This document shows, one piece after another, positions 4,919-33,394 of a stretch of 51,558 nt of DNA. The notes beneath the pieces were generated by a model. The model worked only from the letters and a program-made list of their open reading frames with translations, did not search any database and was not told the origin of the DNA. Within the stretch, counting starts at the first letter, position 1, and the number at the start of each line of letters is the position of its first letter. This DNA comes from an uncultured Pelagibacteraceae bacterium. Lineage in GTDB: Bacteria > Pseudomonadota > Alphaproteobacteria > Pelagibacterales > Pelagibacteraceae. The stretch covers positions 1-51,558 of the forward strand of contig CACJIJ010000005.1 of the NCBI GenBank assembly GCA_902593445.1. Direction: 5' to 3'. A program made the translations under genes and the position numbers.

Positions 4919-6625
4919 CTAAAACATAAAATATCTTTGTGCCAAAGGAAGTTCTTTAGCTGGTTCACATGTAATTATCTCACCATCAGCTTTTACTTCA
5001 TATGTCTCGGGGTTAACCTCAATCTTTGGACACTTATTATTTAAAATCATATCTTTTTTAGATATAGCCCTAGTATTTTCTACAGGTAATAAGTCTTTTC
5101 TTATACTTGCATCTTTTAATGAATTCTTTTCAAGAGCAAGTTTGCTTGTGAAAATTACCGAAGATTTTTCTAAAGAAGTCCCAAATGATGAAAACATTGG
5201 TCTGGTGTATACAGGCTGTGGAGTTGGAATTGATGCATTTGGGTCTCCCATTTGAGCACAAGCTATACTTCCACCTATTAAAATCATCTCTGGCTTTGCA
5301 CCAAAGAATGCTGGGTCCCATAAAACTAAATCTGCACGTTTATTTTTTTCAATACTACCAATATATTTTGAAATCCCATGAGCAATTGCAGGATTAATTG
5401 TGTATTTTGCTAAATATCTTTTAACTCTAAAGTTGTCATTGTCTCCTTTTTCCTCTGGTAAACTTCCTCTTTGAACTTTCATTTTATGTGCAGTTTGCCA
5501 AGTTCTAATTATAACTTCTCCAACTCTACCCATAGCCTGACTATCTGATGCAATAATTGAAAAGGCTCCCATATCATGCAGAATATCTTCTGCTGCAATT
5601 GTTTCTCTTCTTATTCTACTTTCAGCAAATGCTACATCCTCTGGAATAGATTTATCAAGATGATGACAAACCATTAGCATATCCAAATGTTCTTCTATTG
5701 TATTAACTGTGTATGGCCTAGTAGGGTTTGTTGAAGAGGGAATAACATACTCTTCTCCACAAACTTTAATTATATCTGGCGCATGTCCACCACCCGCACC
5801 TTCCGTATGAAAAGCATGAATAGTTCTTTTGTTAATTGCTTTTATAGTATTTTCTACAAATCCACTTTCATTTAAAGTGTCTGTATGAATCATTACTTGA
5901 ACATCATTTTTGTCAGCAATATTTAAACAATTATCAATTGCTCCAGGAGTAGTACCCCAATCCTCATGTAATTTTAAAGCTGAGGCTCCAGCTAGAATTT
6001 GTTCCTCAAGACCTTCTGGCAATGAAGAATTTCCTTTTCCAGCAAAAGCTAAATTCATAGAAAAACCATCAGCAGATTGAATCATTCTTTGTATATGCCA
6101 TGGACCAGGTGTACACGTTGTTGCAAGTGTTCCATGCGCTGGTCCGGTCCCTCCTCCAAGCATGGTTGTAATACCTGAGTGCAAAGCATCATCAATTTGT
6201 TGAGGACATATATAATGAATATGACTATCAAAACCTCCAGCTGTTAAAATTTTTCCTTCTCCAGCAATTATCTCTGTTCCTGGACCAATAATAATATTTA
6301 CCTTAGATTGAGTATCTGGATTACCTGCTTTACCAATTTCAAATATTTTTCCATCTTTTAAACCAACATCAGCTTTATAAATTCCATTTACATCAACTAT
6401 TAAAGCATTAGTTATAACTGTATCAGCAGCTCCTTTTTTTCTACTAATTTGTGATTGACCCATGCCATCTCTTATTACTTTTCCGCCACCAAACTTTACT
6501 TCTTCACCATAAGTAGTTAAGTCGTTCTCAACTTCAATAAATAAGTCAGTATCTGCAAGCCTAACTTTATCTCCTGTAGTAGGCCCATACATATCTGCAT
6601 AAGCTGCTCTAGAAATTTTAGCCAC
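4919..6625 (-). CDS. ureC: urease alpha subunit, catalytic
   Basis: A 568-residue amidohydrolase that hydrolyses urea to ammonia and carbamate on a binuclear nickel centre in the cytoplasm. Nickel ligands are visible: His135 and His137 (HIHYICPQ), the carbamylated Lys218 (ALKLHEDWG), and His247, His273 and Asp361 by alignment with the Klebsiella enzyme at an offset of one. The catalytic flap with His321 is MVCHHLDKS. Full length and intact. It starts with GTG at 6625, overlapping the ureB stop by one base. Nothing in the active site is missing, so an active enzyme is expected if nickel is supplied. Confidence 0.98.
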
Positions 6626-18758: not shown

Positions 18759-19772
18759 CTAAAATTCTAAAATTTTTGTTGAACCGTCATTGTAAGTAAA
18801 TTCTACTTTTTTTTGTGAAATACTCTTTATTGATGTAAAACCGTCATATTCTAAAATAAATTCATTTAATTTTTTTCGACTTTTTTTACTCATTTTTTTT
18901 CCTGGAGCATTTACACCAACATCAATAATCAGCTCAGCTCCATTTAAAAATGCATTTACCCAAGCTTTTACTGGGGGACCACAGGTCATGGCCTCTGTTA
19001 ACCATATGGGCTTGTTTACATTTACGCTTTTTAATAAATCAGAAAATTCATCCACCCAAAGCTCCTTGTCACATTGTCCATCTGGACCACTTATATGGTG
19101 AATATTTGCGATATCAAAATGATCTTTAATTTTAGGTAAAACAGATTTCCAATATCTTTTATTTTCTGGAAACATTCCTGCAGCTCCAGCCATAATAATT
19201 ACTGCATCTGGTTGCTTTTCTTTAATTACTTTTGATGAAAAATTGAAAATCTCGATAAAGTCTTCCTTGCTTCCTTTAAAAAACATATCAAACTCAGGTT
19301 CATTCATCACATCCCAATATTTAATTGGTTTATTTAATCCTGGCATATCATTTGATCCGTCTCCATCATAACGATCAACTAACTTTAAAAGAAAAGCTTT
19401 GTAATCTTCCATTGAACAAGGCTTACTTAAATACTTTGTAAATTTTTTTCCAAAGGGACTTCTCGATTTTTTTCTTTTACAAGATTTTTGTTCCCAATTT
19501 GCATGAGGCCAGATCGTTGCTAAAATTGTTTGATTATGTTTTTGAGAATAAATTACATGTTTATCAGCATCATCCCAAAAAAACTTTCCTTTTTCTTTTT
19601 CTATATGATTCCAAATAAAAGGTCCTGGATGAGGTCTTACCCATTGATTATCTTTACCTCTCATTTTTTCATCACGCATTTCCGTAAGCTCCCCAAATCT
19701 TGAGTCAGAAAATGAACTGCTTGAAATAGAAAGAAAAATTAAAAAATTAATTAAAATAATTTTTTTAATCAC
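18759..19772 (-). CDS. secreted glycoside hydrolase-like protein (clan GH-A type)
   Basis: A 337-residue protein with a Sec signal peptide (MIKKIILINFLIFLSISSSS, then FSDSR). The body looks like a TIM-barrel glycosidase: IKYWDVMNEPEFDMFF has the Asn-Glu pair of the acid/base site, and PIWLTEAMTCG has a Glu where the nucleophile lies in clan GH-A. The family and substrate cannot be fixed by eye; GH39- or GH5-like enzymes are possible. It starts with GTG, has no strong ribosome site, and follows the Met/Gly-rich gene by 11 bases. It is the last gene of the surface locus. Confidence 0.75.
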   Translation of the reverse strand: MIKKIILINFLIFLSISSSSFSDSRFGELTEMRDEKMRGKDNQWVRPHPGPFIWNHIEKEKGKFFWDDADKHVIYSQKHNQTILATIWPHANWEQKSCKRKKSRSPFGKKFTKYLSKPCSMEDYKAFLLKLVDRYDGDGSNDMPGLNKPIKYWDVMNEPEFDMFFKGSKEDFIEIFNFSSKVIKEKQPDAVIIMAGAAGMFPENKRYWKSVLPKIKDHFDIANIHHISGPDGQCDKELWVDEFSDLLKSVNVNKPIWLTEAMTCGPPVKAWVNAFLNGAELIIDVGVNAPGKKMSKKSRKKLNEFILEYDGFTSIKSISQKKVEFTYNDGSTKILEF

Positions 19773-19783
19773 ATCAATATAAA

Positions 19784-22261
19784 TTATTTTGGACCTGGGT
19801 CTCCACCACCTGGGCCTTCTGGACCACCTGGGCCACCCGGGCCTTCTGGACCACCTGGACCACCTGGACCACCTGGACCACCTGGGCCACCCATTGCGCC
19901 TTCAACAGCACCACCAATATCTCCCATGGCACCACCCATCATATCTCCACCCATGGCTCCACCCATGTCACCCATAGGTCCTCCATCAGGTCCTCCCATG
20001 GCTCCACCCATGTCACCCATTGGACCCATATCGCCTGGACCACCTGGGCCTCCAGCCATTGCACCAGCCATAGCTCCGCCCATCGTTCCGGACATACCTT
20101 CTTGCATTGCACCACCCATGGCTTTACCCATGTCTCCTTCGCCCATACCACCAACTCCCATTGCAGCTCCCATTGCATGCGAGCCCATAGCTGAAGCTGC
20201 AGCTCCTTGAGCAGACATAGCAGCTCCCATTGCAGCACCTGCTAAACCACTACCAGCTTCTCCCGCTGCCATTGCTGCACCAGCAACCGAACCAATAGCT
20301 GCTCCTGGGTCTACTCCAGTTCCCATAGCTGCAGATACTTGACTCAAATTCATTCCACCTTTCATTGCGCCATCCAAACCTTCAGGTCCTCCACCCATTA
20401 TGTCTCCTAATTTTGCTCCTCCAGGGCCACCTGCTATTCCCATGCTCGCAGCCATTTCAGGATTCATTTGCGCATCTAAATTCATTTCACCCATTCCTGT
20501 CATACCACCACTCATTGCAGCTAATCCCATGTCACCACCTTCCATTCCCATGGCTCCACTTAATTCTTTCATTCCTTCTGCACCCATTGCTGCCATTGTA
20601 CCTTGGTTTACTAAACCTATTTCCATCATGTCTCCCATCATTCCAGCAGACATATCACCTGTTTTAGCCATGTTTGCTATTCCTTGAACAGCTTTACTTC
20701 CAAGCCCAGCTACATTTGTTGACATCACAGAAGTTATATCCATTCCAGCCATTCCTGCTGCACCCATACTTGCAACCATTCCAGGTGTTAATCCAGTCTG
20801 TGCTGCCATATCAGCCATGCCTAACTTATCCATTTCACCAATATCCATTCCTGTCATGCCTGCCATGGCTGCTCCCATTTCTGCTTTTCCCATATCCTTC
20901 ATCATATCTCCCATCATCATTCCCTCGGATGGTGCATTGCCCGAAAGCATAGAGCCCATTGCTTTTGCTGTCATTCCTTTTGGAGGTGCCATTGCGCCTG
21001 GCAAGCCTCCAGCCAGAGACGGTTTTGCCATAACCATTGCTCCCATCATCATTCCTGACTCGCTTACATTCTCTGGCATCTCTATAGCCTCAGGTCCTTT
21101 TTCAGCCATACCACTTGCAAATGAACCTTTCATTTCAGATCCTTTTTGTATCGCATTCTGTTCTTTAGGAGCTTTGCCTGATATAGCTTGAGAAATCATT
21201 CCTACAGTACCAGACATAGCTGAGGTAATTCCAACTTCTGGATTTGCAAACGCGGTTGATAAAGACTTAGCCATTTCTTCCATTCCCATATCAGCCATTG
21301 CTTTTCCAATTTCTTTCATACCTCCAACACCACCCATGTTTTCTGCCATTTCCGCCATACCTTGCATCCCAATGTTGCCTTCCATACTTTTCATCATATC
21401 GGCACCCATTCCTTTAGCGCTCATAGTCGCAACAATTGCACCTGTCATTGTTTGACCCATCTGACTCATTGCTTCAGGATTAGCTGCAAGTGTTTCTAAA
21501 GCAGCTGTTGCAGCTCCAATAGGTAAAGCTTCTAATGCTCCAGCCATCATTGATGGATTCATTCCCATTTCAGCTACATTCATCGAGGCAAAATCTCCAG
21601 GATTAAAATTTGTCATATCAAAATTTGTAGAGCCTGTAATTGCTTGCATGTCAACCATTCCTGCGCCAGCGAGCCCTTCCATTGCAGCACCCATTCCAAT
21701 TCCCTTAGCATCAAGTGATCCCATCATTCCTTTGGCATCAAAACCTGCTGCACCTAATGCATTCATCTGACCAGCCATTTTTTGTAAAGCCACAACTTTT
21801 CCAGCACCCATCTGCCCTGCAATACTAGATAAAGCAGCCATTTCCTCTGGTGAAAAATCTTTTGTAAAATCAATTCCTGTCATATCTAAAGCTGTTGGAT
21901 CTGGTATAGCGCCTAAAGCCATATCGGTAACACCTTCAACTAAAGACATTGCTTGAACAGCAGAAGTAATATCACCTTTTGCCAAACTCTCTGTAGCAAA
22001 TGCCATTGCACTTTCAGCCTGTTCAATTGAAGCGTCAAGAGCTTTACCTATATCACTTTTGGCCTCACCCAACGCTTCTGTTGCTCCCGCAATATTTTCA
22101 GCAACCATTCCTGCATCAGAAGCCAATTGATCAGCTGCAGCTTGGGCAGAACTTCCTGCAGCTTCAGAAATATCAGACATTGAAGAAATATCATTTGCTT
22201 TCACAAGTATATTTGAAAACAAAAATAATATTAAAAAAGAACTTATAATTACTTTTTTCAT
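19784..22261 (-). CDS. secreted Met/Gly/Ala-rich protein with collagen-like Gly-Gly-Pro tail
   Basis: An 825-residue protein I cannot match to a known family. A Sec signal peptide (MKKVIISSFLILFLFSNILV, cleaved near KA-ND) is followed by an Ala/Ser-rich helical part (to about residue 120), a long irregular region where Met, Gly and Ala dominate (Met exceeds one residue in ten), then a Gly-rich end with repeated GGAMGG/PMGDMGG units and a tail of Gly-Gly-Pro triplets. It lacks Cys, Trp and Tyr. Aspartate and glutamate exceed lysine, so it is acidic. It begins 2 bases after the Lys-rich 200-residue gene. A structural matrix, filament or metal-binding role is possible but unproven. Confidence 0.85.
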   Translation of the reverse strand: MKKVIISSFLILFLFSNILVKANDISSMSDISEAAGSSAQAAADQLASDAGMVAENIAGATEALGEAKSDIGKALDASIEQAESAMAFATESLAKGDITSAVQAMSLVEGVTDMALGAIPDPTALDMTGIDFTKDFSPEEMAALSSIAGQMGAGKVVALQKMAGQMNALGAAGFDAKGMMGSLDAKGIGMGAAMEGLAGAGMVDMQAITGSTNFDMTNFNPGDFASMNVAEMGMNPSMMAGALEALPIGAATAALETLAANPEAMSQMGQTMTGAIVATMSAKGMGADMMKSMEGNIGMQGMAEMAENMGGVGGMKEIGKAMADMGMEEMAKSLSTAFANPEVGITSAMSGTVGMISQAISGKAPKEQNAIQKGSEMKGSFASGMAEKGPEAIEMPENVSESGMMMGAMVMAKPSLAGGLPGAMAPPKGMTAKAMGSMLSGNAPSEGMMMGDMMKDMGKAEMGAAMAGMTGMDIGEMDKLGMADMAAQTGLTPGMVASMGAAGMAGMDITSVMSTNVAGLGSKAVQGIANMAKTGDMSAGMMGDMMEIGLVNQGTMAAMGAEGMKELSGAMGMEGGDMGLAAMSGGMTGMGEMNLDAQMNPEMAASMGIAGGPGGAKLGDIMGGGPEGLDGAMKGGMNLSQVSAAMGTGVDPGAAIGSVAGAAMAAGEAGSGLAGAAMGAAMSAQGAAASAMGSHAMGAAMGVGGMGEGDMGKAMGGAMQEGMSGTMGGAMAGAMAGGPGGPGDMGPMGDMGGAMGGPDGGPMGDMGGAMGGDMMGGAMGDIGGAVEGAMGGPGGPGGPGGPGGPEGPGGPGGPEGPGGGDPGPK
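19806..19886 (-). repeat. nine tandem 9-bp units coding the Gly-Gly-Pro tail
   Basis: Nine consecutive 9-base units, variants of CCACCTGGA on the plus strand, with CCTTCTGGA variants giving the Glu positions. They encode the Gly-Gly-Pro/Glu-Gly-Pro tail of the Met/Gly-rich protein. Four units at 19851-19886 are near identical. Further out, a 25-base block starting CCCATGGCTCC recurs at about 19950 and again about 45 bases on. Short, near-perfect units suggest recent slippage and possible length variation between strains. Confidence 0.85.
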
Positions 22262-22263
22262 TC

Positions 22264-22866
22264 CTAGTTTTCTCCCTCAATCTTTTCTTGTGCTTTAATT
22301 GTTGCGGCACGTTGCGCATTAACTTTTGCAGTTGCAATTTGTTTTTTTAAATTTGCTAAAACTGCTGCACGTTCTGCTATTTCAGGAGTTAATTGTTTTG
22401 CCTTTTTTTTCTTTTTCTTTTTATTTTTTTTATGTGCTGCATATAACATTTTACCTGTTGCCCAAAATTTCAAAACTGCTTCAGAGGACTTTGCTTTTGG
22501 AGAAATATTTAAACTCATCCGCATTGCTTCTCTTCCTTTTTTTAAACCTTCTAGAGTTTCAACCTTTGCTTTTTTGTCATTAAGCATTTCATTAAATAAT
22601 GCTTCAAAGTAAGCCATATCTCTAATCATATGATGCTGGTATTTGTTTAAGCTTGACTTTCCTTTAACAAATCTTTGATAAACTTTTTTTCCTGCTTCAC
22701 CTTGTTTTTGTTTGCTCTTAATCAAACTTTCGTGAAACATTCCTTCTGGATAATCTATTTTTTCGTAAATAAATGCTGCAGGTCTTTCACTTTCAGGCCA
22801 ATCGCTTAGCTTTTCATATTTTTTACAGTAAATGCAGTCTTTCTTCTTTTCTTCCGCTGCTTCCAA
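22264..22866 (-). CDS. Lys-rich CxxC exported protein of unknown function
   Basis: I do not recognise the family. The TTG at 22866 gives 200 residues: DCIYCKKYEKLSDWPESERPA with a CxxC pair, a helical middle, a run of lysines (around residues 140-149) and a C-terminal helix rich in Ala and Lys. The frame stays open upstream to 22954 and there encodes LFKLLILFLIILISTS just before LEAAEEKKK, an obvious signal peptide, so the real protein probably starts before 22917 although no ATG, GTG or TTG is in that frame. The basic protein precedes the acidic Met-rich gene by 2 bases, so the two may bind each other. Confidence 0.75.
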   Translation of the reverse strand: MEAAEEKKKDCIYCKKYEKLSDWPESERPAAFIYEKIDYPEGMFHESLIKSKQKQGEAGKKVYQRFVKGKSSLNKYQHHMIRDMAYFEALFNEMLNDKKAKVETLEGLKKGREAMRMSLNISPKAKSSEAVLKFWATGKMLYAAHKKNKKKKKKKAKQLTPEIAERAAVLANLKKQIATAKVNAQRAATIKAQEKIEGEN

Positions 22867-22922
22867 ATTGGAAGTGGAAATAAGAATTATTAAAAATAAA
22901 ATTAATAATTTAAATAAGTTAG

Positions 22923-22939
22923 TGGCAGATTTTCTGCCA
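22923..22939 (-). other. hairpin in the leader of the CxxC/Met-rich gene pair
   Basis: TGGCAGA and TCTGCCA (22923-22929 and 22933-22939) form a perfect 7-bp stem with a 3-base loop. On the minus-strand RNA it lies just before the signal-peptide codons. A further GCCA at 22948-22951 could pair with the same TGGC, so two exclusive folds are possible, as in switching leaders. I do not recognise a known riboswitch class. The lack of a T run argues against a normal terminator. Confidence 0.4.
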
Positions 22940-23074
22940 ATATCACCTGGCTAAACCTTTCATAAACAAATGTTACACTTAATTGTCGCACTAAAAAAGC
23001 TCTTATAACTGTGTGAAAACAGGTTTTATTAAAACTTTATTCAACTTTTGATTGTTAAAAATGATTTATTTTTT

Positions 23075-23914
23075 TTATTTTTGATTTTTAAATTTCTCTT
23101 CTTTTTTTGGTTTTCTAAAAACTATGCTGTCTAAATAAACTCTTTGATCAGGTAAACTTTCCCAATCAGAATTCCAATAACCAATCGTACGGTGTCTATA
23201 AATTCCAAATTTCATATAACCACCTGTACAAGTATCAGCTAAAGTTTTTATATTCTTAAGATCAGCGATTACTTCATTATTTTTATAAATTTTAAATCTT
23301 CCTGTTTCATCTAATTTCCAAAGAACATGAAACTTTAAGTGTGTCCATTTTCCTTTAAGATCTTCAATTTTTCCAATGACAACAGGTTCAGATGAATAGG
23401 CTGCTTTACTAGCCCAGCTATAATAATGCTCCCCTTTATATTTAAAATCTTGAGCCCAAAAATGACAACAACTATGACAACCTTTTGCTTTGTTGTCAGT
23501 ATGCATCTGTCCAATTATTACTACTGCACCTTTTTTTAAAGGCTCATAAGTTTCATCAAAATACACAGCGTACTCAAAAATATGCTCTTTATTCTTAAGT
23601 TTCATATCACCCAAATTTAATTCTTGCCTACTTCTATTGCCCTTACCATCACATTGAATTTGGGTAGTTTGTGCTTTACCTGTGCCACAACCTGCATCTT
23701 CTCTATTTACTGTAACTTGAATACTTGTTTTTCCCTCGTATACTGGAAATCCCTCAGATGCTTTTACTTCTATAATTCTATTTACTTTTTTTTTATGCAT
23801 AGAAATAAATTGCTTTTTATAGCCTTTAATATCTTTGAATTTTACTTTGTGGCCATCTGAAAATGCTGTGCCAGAAAATAATAAAAATGAAATTATTAAA
23901 ATAATATTTTTCAT
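23075..23914 (-). CDS. secreted polysaccharide lyase-like (jelly-roll) protein
   Basis: A 279-residue protein with a Sec signal peptide (MKNIILIISFLLFSGTAFSD). The mature part resembles the heparin lyase I-like/Polysacc_lyase jelly-roll family: NRSRQELNLGD (Arg and Glu of the substrate groove), FEYAVYFDETYEPL, GKWTHLKFHVLWKLDETGRFKIYKN, and a C-terminal YMKFGIYRH and RVYLDSIVFRK. These proteins bind or cleave acidic polysaccharides. Six or more cysteines (GCGTGK, GCHSCCH, DTCTGG) could form disulfides in the periplasm. Its ATG overlaps the DUF1501 stop by one base. The substrate is unknown and catalysis is not certain. Confidence 0.7.
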   Translation of the reverse strand: MKNIILIISFLLFSGTAFSDGHKVKFKDIKGYKKQFISMHKKKVNRIIEVKASEGFPVYEGKTSIQVTVNREDAGCGTGKAQTTQIQCDGKGNRSRQELNLGDMKLKNKEHIFEYAVYFDETYEPLKKGAVVIIGQMHTDNKAKGCHSCCHFWAQDFKYKGEHYYSWASKAAYSSEPVVIGKIEDLKGKWTHLKFHVLWKLDETGRFKIYKNNEVIADLKNIKTLADTCTGGYMKFGIYRHRTIGYWNSDWESLPDQRVYLDSIVFRKPKKEEKFKNQK

Positions 23915-25062
23915 TAAACTTTAAAAAGTTTATCAGACATGTTTAGTAAATTTTCACCCCAGAAAACTTCTTTAGTGATTTTTTTGAAATCTACGTCAAA
24001 GACTGTAGACATTGCAGAAGCATAAATTGCTCTTGAGTCTATTGTAGAATTTAAATCCCTTCCTTCAAATAATTCTTTTTTCTTTAATCCTGGCCAATCG
24101 GTGTGAACTTGTGCCTTTTTAACAAGCCCTCCTGCCATTAAGATAGCTGAGCCGTAACCATGCTCCGTCCCATTGCTACTGTTCTGCTTAATTGTTCTTC
24201 CAAACTCAGTTAGGGTTAAAACTAATGTATTATTAAATGCCTCTTCAGACATTGAAGATTTTAAAGATCTAACAATATTATCATAATCTGATAGACAATC
24301 TGCATGAGCACCATCTGTTGCTCCTTGGGCTGCATGGGTATCGAAACCATCCACTTCGAAGACTGCAACTTTAGGTCCATTTGGTTTTGATAACTCTGTA
24401 CCAGCACTTGAAGCTAAAATCCAAGCATCATCTCTTGATCTATTATTAAAATCTCTATTTAAAATTATTTCTAAATTATCACTTAATAATTTTTCATCGT
24501 GCTCTTTGTATGCTTGTTTTATTAATTCTAGAGTGTCAGGATATGGAAGACTACGACCTACAGGAAAATAATTATTATTCATTGGAACACCCCTAATTAA
24601 TAAAGGCATTGGTAAAGCTAAAGCTAATCCCTGTCCTGTTAATCCAGCTACTTTCATTCCTCTTCCGAGCCAACCTGTTTTTTCTTGGTAAGGTATTTTA
24701 CCACCAGACTCCATTAAATTTTGACCATCAAAGTGTGATCTTCCAGTATAAGGGATATTTGTTGCGTGAACCGCAGCACTTAAATTTTGATCCCAAAGAC
24801 TTTTGAATGTTTTTAATGCTGGGTGTAAATCAAAATCTGATGTTAATTTTAAAGTTCTTTCAAGATTAATTTTGCTTCTTAATTTTTCAAAATTCTTATC
24901 ACCTTTAATTGGAATTGCACATAAACCATCCATTCCTCCGCGTAACATAATTATCACTAAATTTTTTTTTGTTTGCGAGGCATAAGCTGGTGCTCCAAAA
25001 CCAGCAAAATATAATGACGTTAAAGCTGTAGTTTTTAAAAAATTTCTTCTTGATATTTTCAT
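23914..25062 (-). CDS. DUF1501 family protein, Tat-exported
   Basis: A 382-residue DUF1501 protein with a twin-arginine signal (MKISRRNFLKTTALTSLYFA then GAPAYA), so it is exported folded, perhaps with a cofactor or metal. NLVIIMLRGGMDGLCAIPIKG, FDGQNLMESGGK, DGFDTHAAQG and LTLTEFGRTIKQN are family landmarks. The fold is thought related to alkaline phosphatase/sulfatase enzymes, but the activity is not established. It overlaps the preceding DUF1800 gene by 4 bases (ATGA), the classic DUF1800-DUF1501 pairing, and the following lyase-like gene by one base. Confidence 0.93.
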   Translation of the reverse strand: MKISRRNFLKTTALTSLYFAGFGAPAYASQTKKNLVIIMLRGGMDGLCAIPIKGDKNFEKLRSKINLERTLKLTSDFDLHPALKTFKSLWDQNLSAAVHATNIPYTGRSHFDGQNLMESGGKIPYQEKTGWLGRGMKVAGLTGQGLALALPMPLLIRGVPMNNNYFPVGRSLPYPDTLELIKQAYKEHDEKLLSDNLEIILNRDFNNRSRDDAWILASSAGTELSKPNGPKVAVFEVDGFDTHAAQGATDGAHADCLSDYDNIVRSLKSSMSEEAFNNTLVLTLTEFGRTIKQNSSNGTEHGYGSAILMAGGLVKKAQVHTDWPGLKKKELFEGRDLNSTIDSRAIYASAMSTVFDVDFKKITKEVFWGENLLNMSDKLFKV

Positions 25063-26495
25063 GCCTTTAAAAACTCCGGGTGATTAAAAAGTAAAGTATG
25101 TTTTTCAACAGACCTATTTTTTTGATTTATGTATTTCATTATTTTGCTTGGATTGTCGAAATTTTTTTCAACCATTTCTTCATAATATGCAGTATTTTTA
25201 TTATTTTCCATTTTTGAGAAATTGTAACTCGCTTTTGCATATACAAGTCTTCTGATTAATAATTCTGGTGAAATCCAATCATCAGAATGGTCTGACCAAC
25301 CATTTGGTTGTTTTGCTCTGTAAGGATGATGACCAATATTTCTCAAAAGTCGCTCTGGTTCTCGATGTGAACCAAACGGTTTTTGACCAAGCTCGTACTT
25401 ATCCATTAGATCTGGTGATGGCGGCCAATTAAGATCTGCAATTTTAGCAACTTGAATTAACCAATTTTCAGGTGTTTGAAATTTTTTATGTTTATCGTTG
25501 TAATCAAATGCAACCCTTAATGCAGCCTTATGTATTTCTGGCAAATTTCCATCAGATTTTTCAAAAGCATCAATAATCGGCTGCTTCATTTCTTTTGTAG
25601 GTTCATCTGTGATTAAAAATCTGCATAGCCTTTCCGCAACAAAATCTCTACAGTTAGGATGGTTTACTAAATCTTTAATAACAACAGCTAATGCTTTTTT
25701 ACCTTTTTTATATTCTTTTCCCAAAACATTTTTTTTACCTATTTGATGATATTCTGAATTAAACCAGACATTACCTGTTTCTAAATTTTTTTTACTCCAT
25801 CTATGTTGCCAGCCAGTCATAATATATGCTAATTGAATTACATCATCTTGGGTATAACCAGCTTTTGGAGATACTGTATGAAGTTCTAAAAGTTCTCTTG
25901 CATGATTTTCATTAATGGTTGCAGGTTCTTTTTTTCTTCTTCTCCACTCTTCACTTGCTGTAACACTTTTTGGACCAGCACTCTCACTATTATCTAAATG
26001 ATGGATCATAGCCCATGAGGTTGTCACATCATAAACCATTTTTTCAAATGATTGATTTAAATTTGGTCGAATAATTTCTCTTTGGTAAGGACCAGTTGAA
26101 TAATTTGCTAAAAAATCTTTTTCACTTATTGCAAAAAAATTTCCCCAAAACATCCATAATTTTGCTAAAACTGGATGACTACTATTAATTCCTTCATTAT
26201 GTCTTATTGAAATTTCTAAAGACTCCCAAAACTTTTGCCCTGTTTTATGTCTAAGAATATCTTTATGAGTTTTGTATAGTGTTTTGTTATCTTTATACTT
26301 TTTTCTTAAAACTTTTCTGTCTCCATAAACCCAATCTCTATAATGTTTTCTTAATTCTTTCTCTGAGTGTATTTTTCCTGTCCAGGATAACTTTGGAATA
26401 TCATCTAGTTGATTTAGGGCCCAATTAAGTGGATCGGAAGGAACTTCCTCATTAGGACTTATGCCAAAGGCAACTTTTCTAAAAAAGTTTTTCAT
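25059..26495 (-). CDS. DUF1800 family protein
   Basis: A 478-residue DUF1800 protein. NENHARELLELHTVSP followed by GYTQDDVIQLAYIMTGW is the family hallmark, with a helical N-terminal half and NGWSDHSDDWISPELLIRRL near the end. No signal peptide is evident, so its location is unclear. DUF1800 genes are regularly paired with DUF1501, as here, and no biochemical role is established. It begins 3 bases after the glycosyltransferase stop and overlaps DUF1501, so the pair is co-translated. It is the largest intact member of the locus after the Met-rich protein. Confidence 0.93.
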   Translation of the reverse strand: MKNFFRKVAFGISPNEEVPSDPLNWALNQLDDIPKLSWTGKIHSEKELRKHYRDWVYGDRKVLRKKYKDNKTLYKTHKDILRHKTGQKFWESLEISIRHNEGINSSHPVLAKLWMFWGNFFAISEKDFLANYSTGPYQREIIRPNLNQSFEKMVYDVTTSWAMIHHLDNSESAGPKSVTASEEWRRRKKEPATINENHARELLELHTVSPKAGYTQDDVIQLAYIMTGWQHRWSKKNLETGNVWFNSEYHQIGKKNVLGKEYKKGKKALAVVIKDLVNHPNCRDFVAERLCRFLITDEPTKEMKQPIIDAFEKSDGNLPEIHKAALRVAFDYNDKHKKFQTPENWLIQVAKIADLNWPPSPDLMDKYELGQKPFGSHREPERLLRNIGHHPYRAKQPNGWSDHSDDWISPELLIRRLVYAKASYNFSKMENNKNTAYYEEMVEKNFDNPSKIMKYINQKNRSVEKHTLLFNHPEFLKA

Positions 26496-32620: not shown

Positions 32621-33394
32621 TTACTTAGCTCTTTTTCCACTTGAACTAGTTGCAGCAGCCCAGATTACTAGACCAAATGCAATTTTGTTAATGAAGTCAG
32701 CTAAGTTATAAACGACGTTAAGTGAGTCTGCGTCTACACCACCAGTTAAGTAACCAAATACATAACCTAATGGGTAAATTGCCCAACCTACTGTAACAAT
32801 CATTCTCATTGCTCCGAATGCAGTTACAAGAGCTTTGTTACCGCTCTTCGATGCAGCTTTTCCAGCTTCACCTGAGAATACTTCATAAAGAATGTATACC
32901 CAACCTGCCATTCCGATGATGAAACCTAGTGTAGCATTAATGTATCCTGCTTCACCCAAGTATCCACCGATTAGCATAACTAATGAACCAATTAACAATC
33001 TCCAGAACATTCCAGAGTTTGCTTTGTTAATAGCTGCTAGAATTAAATAGAATTCTACCATCTGTAAAGGCACAGTAATTAACCAGTCAATGTATCTGTA
33101 AACAGTTGGCGAGTCTCCAGTAGCAACCCATACTTCTCTCATGTACATGTAGTGTATGAATGCAATACCAGTTACTAGACCAGCAACAATAACTGATGTT
33201 CTCCAGCCTGATGCGACATTGCCCGCTTCCATGAAAAAGAAAGCAGTAGCTGCTAACATCCCCATAGAGATAACCCAGAATGAAATTCCGACGAAGTCAT
33301 CTTGGCTCAACATCGTTGCGTCTGCTGCAATAGCTATACCTGAAAATCCAATCAGAGCCATAGCTGCTAAAGCAAACAGTTTAAGTTTTTTCAT
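32621..33394 (-). CDS. proteorhodopsin, blue-absorbing type light-driven proton pump
   Basis: A 257-residue seven-helix rhodopsin with an N-terminal signal peptide (cleaved near GIAIA). Offset by six from the green prototype, the proton acceptor is Asp103 (RYIDWL), the donor Glu114 (QMVEFY) and the retinal lysine Lys237 (FINKIAF). Gln111 stands at the spectral tuning site (position 105 in the prototype), the state of blue-absorbing forms, while green forms have Leu or Met. His81 is the conserved partner of the acceptor. It pumps protons out of the cell in light. It has a strong GAGGGAG ribosome site and its own terminator, so it is probably expressed alone and highly. Retinal synthesis genes are not in this window. 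Confidence 0.98.
   Translation of the reverse strand: MKKLKLFALAAMALIGFSGIAIAADATMLSQDDFVGISFWVISMGMLAATAFFFMEAGNVASGWRTSVIVAGLVTGIAFIHYMYMREVWVATGDSPTVYRYIDWLITVPLQMVEFYLILAAINKANSGMFWRLLIGSLVMLIGGYLGEAGYINATLGFIIGMAGWVYILYEVFSGEAGKAASKSGNKALVTAFGAMRMIVTVGWAIYPLGYVFGYLTGGVDADSLNVVYNLADFINKIAFGLVIWAAATSSSGKRAK

Follow-up and report, generated by a model that had tools for sequence, protein, structure and literature searches.

The window, by which we mean the whole stretch of 51,558 nucleotides analysed here, carries on its minus strand a large gene, M, whose product is rich in Met, Gly and Ala, and directly upstream of it a smaller one, S. The 825-residue frame at 19784-22261 had been recognised correctly by the first-pass annotation, which left out its strand (the plus-strand frame across these positions is full of stops, and M is coded on the minus strand) and overlooked both the partner gene S and the absence of a start codon in it. 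The features of M and of its two neighbours are the following:

19784..22261, minus strand: M protein (Met/Gly/Ala-rich, exported), 825 aa, stop codon included; from ORF reading, composition and homologues
22196..22261, minus strand: signal peptide, M residues 1-22, recognised by eye
21662..22192, minus strand: N-terminal helical module, about residues 24-200, common to the partners of other S genes (hmmsearch, AlphaFold2)
20342..21664, minus strand: Met-rich body with predicted short helices, about residues 200-640, the prediction being of low confidence past residue 275
20042..20344, minus strand: Gly/Ala/Met-rich region, about residues 640-740, poor in charges and with frequent small-xxx-small spacings
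19805..19891, minus strand: Gly-Gly-Pro tail of 9-bp units, 9.7 copies, varying between orthologues
22264..22947, minus strand: partner gene S, main frame, exported, basic, with a CxxC (CxYC motif); its stop lies 2 nt before the M start
18759..19772, minus strand: exported GH10-like protein, the usual but not obligatory third gene

Full-length M contains 14.5% Met, 20.8% Gly and 17.2% Ala, no Cys, Trp, Tyr or Arg and a single His, for a net charge of -51, while the mature protein contains 14.8% Met (119 residues), 21.4% Gly and 17.6% Ala, for a net charge of -54. Given the composition of the other ORFs of at least 150 aa in the window, the probability of finding at least 120 Met in 825 residues is about 8e-59, and that of finding no Cys, Trp or Tyr about 4e-23. 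The earlier description of a secreted protein with Met above one residue in ten and with none of these three residues was accurate (the signal peptide, MKKVIISSFLILFLFSNILVKA-ND, is recognised by eye), and the genome is indeed small, and AT-rich. The GGAMGG and PMGDMGG repeats are present, in two copies each. The protein is repetitive in such places; its body, on the other hand, is not a simple repeat, but is predicted to be helical and is conserved column by column. The nine tandem 9-bp units reported at the end of the gene correspond to the 9.7 copies of the tail, with 80% matches, in a tract that Glu interrupts. M resembles collagen-like bacterial proteins in its C-terminal Gly-Pro-X triplets. 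We nevertheless dropped the label "collagen-like": the longest Gly-X-Y run has 10 triplets here, 3-5 in 9 of the 26 Met-rich orthologues and a single one in each of the two low-Met homologues described below; many orthologues thus have a short or interrupted tail and the low-Met ones have none, and the body is predicted to be helical, unlike that of collagen-like proteins.

The M gene has a GC content of 46.6%, against 30.2% for the window, and of 27% at third codon positions, much of which is the G of ATG. Its codon use is ordinary: the fraction of C-ending codons is 0.19, as compared with 0.74 (for N/D/F/Y/H) in the gene at 32621-33394 on the minus strand, which we take from its sequence to be rhodopsin-like. 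The latter gene stands apart from the 14 other genes sampled, M among them, in which this fraction is 0.10-0.29. Codon use thus gives no support to a high expression of M, and it speaks against a very abundant fibre.

The dN/dS ratio of M, calculated against five orthologues, is about 0.11-0.27, and none of the matched relatives has an internal stop in M, the lone TAA that was flagged being the end of the frame; the frame looks translated and under purifying selection. Homologues with the same layout exist in related genomes. The outcomes that the first-pass annotation had named as refuting it (no such homologues, stop codons in relatives) are hence not those observed, as far as sequence tells. 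Neither M nor S matches any family in Pfam, NCBIfam or PHROGs, and in a sequence search of the PDB the best E values were 0.32 for M and 0.034 for S (to IF-3), weak matches which we discounted. By the evidence of its frame and of its relatives, M is a real, conserved, exported SAR11 protein without a name in the libraries searched. A large, sulfur-rich exported protein under purifying selection must repay its cost.

The relatives used throughout this work belong to one bacterial order. The 35 loci that we obtained from named genomes with S as the query are all from Pelagibacteraceae, mostly from single-cell genomes, and in all 35 M lies directly after S on the same strand. In G269 and G023, where M was matched but the contig shows no S, the contig ends within M. 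Of 297 genomes sampled from the order, 15 gave M-type matches in a profile search, two of them only weak and to giant relatives, so most of the SAR11 genomes sampled are without M. The S-family profile matched 21 of these 297 genomes and, in a sample of 385 genomes of the class, the genome of the window only; a narrower profile of the giant-type S matched 28 of the 297, several marginally. From these counts, the pair has a patchy distribution in SAR11, and the samples gave no example of it beyond SAR11.

Among the 34 loci with sufficient contig, 23 have a gene for a secreted GH10-like protein after M; against PF00331 the one in the window scores 14.2 bits, under the curated cut-off of 22.1. 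The surroundings in the window include a sulfatase, a PF14099 polysaccharide lyase, DUF1501 and DUF1800 proteins and glycosyltransferases. Three of these (PF14099, DUF1501, DUF1800) stand in a row upstream of S, at 23075-26495 on the minus strand, in a set which differs among relatives. In the relatives the pair is found in the same region, or near genes among which we recognised by eye an ABC transporter and dehydrogenases; in L086 and L087 it is sited elsewhere. A phage origin was considered and rejected: two scans of viral contigs with the S and M profiles gave no relatives, a search with S gave no match in 50,697 phage records, and neither M, S nor a low-Met homologue matched PHROGs. One distant S had a weak match to a PHROGs portal family (E 0.0043 over 35 residues), which we discounted.

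The S product, about 230 aa with its leader, has a signal peptide recognised by eye. Distant S families exist in SAR11 and match S (hhalign, 97.65%). When the unfused distant S genes were aligned, seven of the eight were found directly to precede a gene for an exported protein of 319-1648 aa, several of these being long coiled-coils; the eighth (L048, 11479-12189) has a coiled-coil protein before it and not after it. The N-terminal module of M was detected in the partners of seven distant S genes by hmmsearch in a database of 40 proteins: strongly in five (1.8e-16 to 9e-8), two of which, L118 and L119, are closely related, then at 6e-6 in the partner of L122 and at only 0.005 in that of L121. 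Furthermore, in five loci (L051, L120, L123, L124, L125) an exported protein of 575-915 aa carries a fused S domain at its N-terminus; the module of M is not clearly present in these fused partners. The recurrence of the module beside distant S genes, together with the fusions, leads us to infer that S and its partner act together. Among the partners of distant S genes are giant exported coiled-coil proteins of 1424-1648 aa (L048 3381-8324, L049 4862-9307, L050 5564-9835), one giant partner matching SMC-type coiled-coil profiles below the cut-off. The genome G201 has three S-family genes.

For residues 24-275 of M, AlphaFold2 run on 35 sequences predicted an all-helical structure (pLDDT 79.1, pTM 0.73), while the full-length prediction from 14 sequences was unreliable (mean pLDDT 41, pTM 0.26). 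We tentatively favour the view that M is the large partner of an exported two-protein system, a helical component of the envelope or surface with a structural or adhesive role. Both proteins would take the Sec route, S and the N-terminal module of M would be the conserved coupling parts, and the rest of M would form a helical body, with Met at the places where relatives have Leu, Ile or Val, and behind it a flexible tail rich in Gly and Pro. The complex, if S and M indeed bind each other, would most likely be structural or adhesive, in the periplasm or at the cell surface, and is often encoded with a secreted glycosidase-like protein. The fibre or surface coat suggested by the first-pass annotation would belong to the same kind of reading. 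Two-gene exported adhesin or surface systems are known in general. S and M resemble them in combining a small conserved exported protein with a large variable exported partner, in some cases a coiled-coil, and in their patchy distribution; they differ in that we identified neither an exporter nor a barrel gene next to S and M, and no PDB sequence matched at E <0.03. As M and S match no Pfam, NCBIfam or PHROGs family, no anchor or adhesin domain backs the surface reading. The S/M family would be an unnamed part of the SAR11 envelope.

Among the 35 S-linked M proteins the Met content is 11-16% in 33 and about 3% in two, L086 and L087, which align with M over its whole length. We defined 95 conserved Met columns, with Met in at least 80% of the 26 Met-rich orthologues. 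The 190 cells of the two low-Met homologues at these columns contain L 53 times, I 49, M 29, V 23, a gap 9 and other residues 27 times; that is, 154 of the 181 ungapped cells hold L, I, V or M. Within M, the spacing i+4 between Met residues is favoured (z 3.7) and the spacings i+1 (z -2.1) and i+2 (z -3.5) are avoided, as in amphipathic helices. Both results show Met occupying hydrophobic helical positions. Both trees place the low-Met pair within the Met-rich set; a Met-rich clade is nevertheless not rejected by the data of the N-terminal module (p-AU 0.399), and some of the branches are long. This exchange of Met for Leu, Ile and Val is a natural experiment on why one would build a protein on methionine.

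Across 17 close loci, M retains its Met in 91.8% of 1991 cells and its Leu, Ile and Val in 80.1%, which is not what one expects of a purely structural protein. In neighbouring genes of 80-86% identity (D1501, GT2, PMT, D1800, DksA) Met is kept mostly at 74-86%, but it is kept at 98% in the GH-like gene, at 99% in S and at 92.7% in all ten genes other than M pooled, whose overall identity is higher, so that the excess in M is suggestive only. Some selection for Met itself is nonetheless likely, since the change from ATG to ATA is easy in an AT-rich genome.

These observations bear on the main rival to the structural reading, namely that M is not just an oxidant sink, as the first-pass annotation had suggested, but a renewable one, the exported Met being oxidised in place of other proteins and reduced again by periplasmic Msr enzymes. 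The 119 Met of the mature protein, the near absence of other oxidisable residues (no Cys, Trp or Tyr and one His) and the better retention of Met than of Leu, Ile or Val within M are what such a sink would display, and the SAR11 genomes tested have Msr genes of periplasmic type: PF00174 (the MsrP family) is found in 13 of 19 chosen genomes, and in the genome of the window we recognised by eye an MsrP-like protein with an adjoining MsrQ-like one. The same Msr genes, however, occur in genomes without M, so that this repertoire allows a sink without favouring it. None of the 635 ORFs of at least 80 aa in the 35 loci and the window matches SAR11 MsrP, MsrQ, MsrA or MsrB at E 1e-4. Cys, Trp and His are missing from the low-Met homologues as well, and their loss is hence not tied to Met; the Met residues are at hydrophobic, probably buried positions; and the pooled neighbours retain Met too, at a higher overall identity. 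The known case, MrpX/BcrX of Azospira and Brucella, is a Met-rich peptide of MXKDX repeats whose gene adjoins msrQP and an ECF sigma/anti-sigma pair (PMC8315932, partial text). M is likewise Met-rich and exported (by its signal peptide, seen by eye), with the MsrP/MsrQ-like pair elsewhere in its genome; it differs from the peptide described in that partial text by its 825 aa, its partner S and the lack of any Msr gene nearby. The Msr genes mark the known case; we regard the sink as rather unlikely. The six genomes without PF00174 (G004, G176, G263, G211, G062, G221) all carry extra MsrA of greater length, 192-210 aa, and we read this longer MsrA and PF00174 as alternative sets for the periplasmic repair of Met sulfoxide. 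By eye, MsrA is exported in G004, G176 and G211, and MsrB looks exported in G004 and G211.

A second alternative is that M was shaped by nutrients, either as an exported protein cheap in carbon and nitrogen or as a store of sulfur in the form of Met. Among the 40 ORFs of at least 150 aa in the window, the side chains of M have the lowest content of nitrogen (0.096 per residue, median 0.3465) and of carbon (1.96, median 3.15) and the highest of sulfur (0.145, median 0.033). Ca. P. ubique, which lacks assimilatory sulfate reduction, has to rely on reduced sulfur (PMC5069961, partial text), and we count this in favour of the nutrient alternative. Yet a Met store would be costly for a sulfur auxotroph and export an odd location for it, the column conservation of M is unexpected for a mere store, and the low cost may be a by-product of the richness in Gly and Ala. 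We consider this explanation improbable.

The first-pass annotation had also proposed that M binds copper or silver through Met motifs. Many Met residues do lie at i+3 to i+5, and copper storage proteins are among the best, though weak, VIA-align rows for residues 24-275, at Z 5.5. According to the tool itself, however, such a Z falls within the background for helical bundles; Foldseek found no match with E <1 for the same residues in the PDB. The Csp copper storage fold is a four-helix bundle lined with Cys, whereas M has no Cys and one His, and the low-Met homologues mostly have L, I or V in place of Met. The metal role is thus left with no positive evidence and appears very improbable indeed.

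We now come to the start of S. The gene could be read by its Cys motif in 34 cases among the window and the 35 loci, L084 and L086 being unreadable. In 16 of the 34 there is an in-frame ATG. The other 18 (the window, L053-L067, L069 and L079), which are related and do not count as independent cases, have no usable start in frame: the S frame opens after a TAG and shows no ATG, GTG or TTG before the mature part, except in three of them for a late TTG, behind the hydrophobic stretch. The region contains the following elements:

22943..22963, minus strand: frame-0 leader ORF ATG AAA GGT TTA GCC AGG TGA (MKGLAR)
22945..22954, minus strand: candidate +1 frameshift site TTA GCC AGG T, TTAGCCAGGY in 18/18 loci
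22923..22939, minus strand: 7-bp hairpin on the 3' side of the candidate site, clear in about 8/18 loci
22970..22975, minus strand: -10-like TAACAT, 6 nt before the leader ATG, seen by eye

All 18 loci have this upstream ATG frame, which encodes MKGLAR or a variant, contains TTA-GCC-AGG-Y and ends after 6-13 codons. If translation passed there into the +1 frame, S would resume as Gly (GGY) and give products of 231-236 aa with a signal peptide (184 aa in L079, apparently because of a second frame break). The reading frame from the ATG to the site is preserved through an insertion of 3 nt in L060 and with a different ATG in L065 and L069. Of six genomes searched within the branch, five have the 12-mer GGTTTAGCCAGG at this site, as against none of eight others, reversed controls giving 0; a further copy of GGTTTAGCCAGG in G165 is antisense within another gene. 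In the ORFs of at least 150 aa of the window, AGG accounts for 46 of the 457 Arg codons and GCC for 59 of the 956 Ala codons. We found 29 tRNA genes in this genome, which is 87% complete: for Ala the only anticodon is UGC, for Gly there are GCC and UCC, and Arg-CCU was not found, an absence which is weak evidence because Arg-UCU is also missing.

A programmed +1 frameshift in S is the likeliest reading of these data, and we believe it probable. The other explanation is that S begins at a non-canonical codon (ATT, GTT etc.) in its own frame, the ATG leader being a short regulatory ORF and no frameshift taking place. An ATT does follow the site in the window and in several relatives, and the hairpin clear in about 8 of the 18 loci could serve for control by a leader peptide. 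But the codon at this place is not conserved over the 18 loci (ATT, TTT, GTT, ACT, AAT and others), a TAG stands directly upstream in the S frame in all 18, and the ATG holds one frame relative to the site despite the insertion in L060 and the shifted ATG of L065 and L069. This explanation is therefore somewhat unlikely, though it keeps some weight. As to the frameshift, the hairpin cannot be essential to it, being clear in so few loci. With the -10-like TAACAT so close to the leader ATG, the mRNA is possibly leaderless.

Known sites of +1 frameshifting offer precedents: those of yeast Ty1 (CUU_A.GG_C) and Ty3 (GCG_A.GU_U) have a slow A-site codon and that of bacterial prfB an internal Shine-Dalgarno sequence (PMC5009743, PMC12661321, partial texts). 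S would share with prfB, Ty1 and Ty3 a short frame-0 ORF followed by a body in the +1 frame, with Ty1 an A-site AGG followed by GGY (in 18/18 S sites), with Ty3 and antizyme an Ala codon in the P site, and with prfB, as these partial texts describe it, a Shine-Dalgarno-like element, AAAGGT, upstream of the site in most loci. Unlike the UGA of prfB, the codon of the S site is a sense codon, AGG, with a frame-0 UGA after it in only 4 of the 18 loci; unlike in these systems, the Ala codon is GCC and the gene, from SAR11, codes for an exported protein. S, and possibly M through coupling, would in one branch of SAR11 be expressed by a +1 frameshift at GCC-AGG-Y, GCC being codon 5 to 9. The parts of the literature on unusual proteins and on frameshifting in SAR11/Pelagibacter that were available to us showed nothing on M or on a frameshift in S. 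If the frameshift is real, it would be a further bacterial case beside prfB, in which the ribosome shifts by +1 at a sense codon, in an operon of an abundant lineage.

The whole picture is a tentative but quite possible one: a diversified SAR11 family of paired exported proteins, unnamed in the libraries searched, in which, in one branch, the operon of a Met-rich, Arg-free member may be gated by a Ty1/Ty3-like +1 frameshift at the rare AGG, so that its output could follow the supply of arginyl-tRNA, that is of nitrogen.

Finally, no riboswitch or known RNA matched the leader of S at the Rfam gathering score, seven weak matches being discounted. Elsewhere in the window, Rfam matches were obtained for the SAR11_0636 sRNA at 1417-1507 on the minus strand and for 5_ureB_sRNA at 6195-6468 on the plus strand, the latter antisense to the urease gene at 4919-6625.
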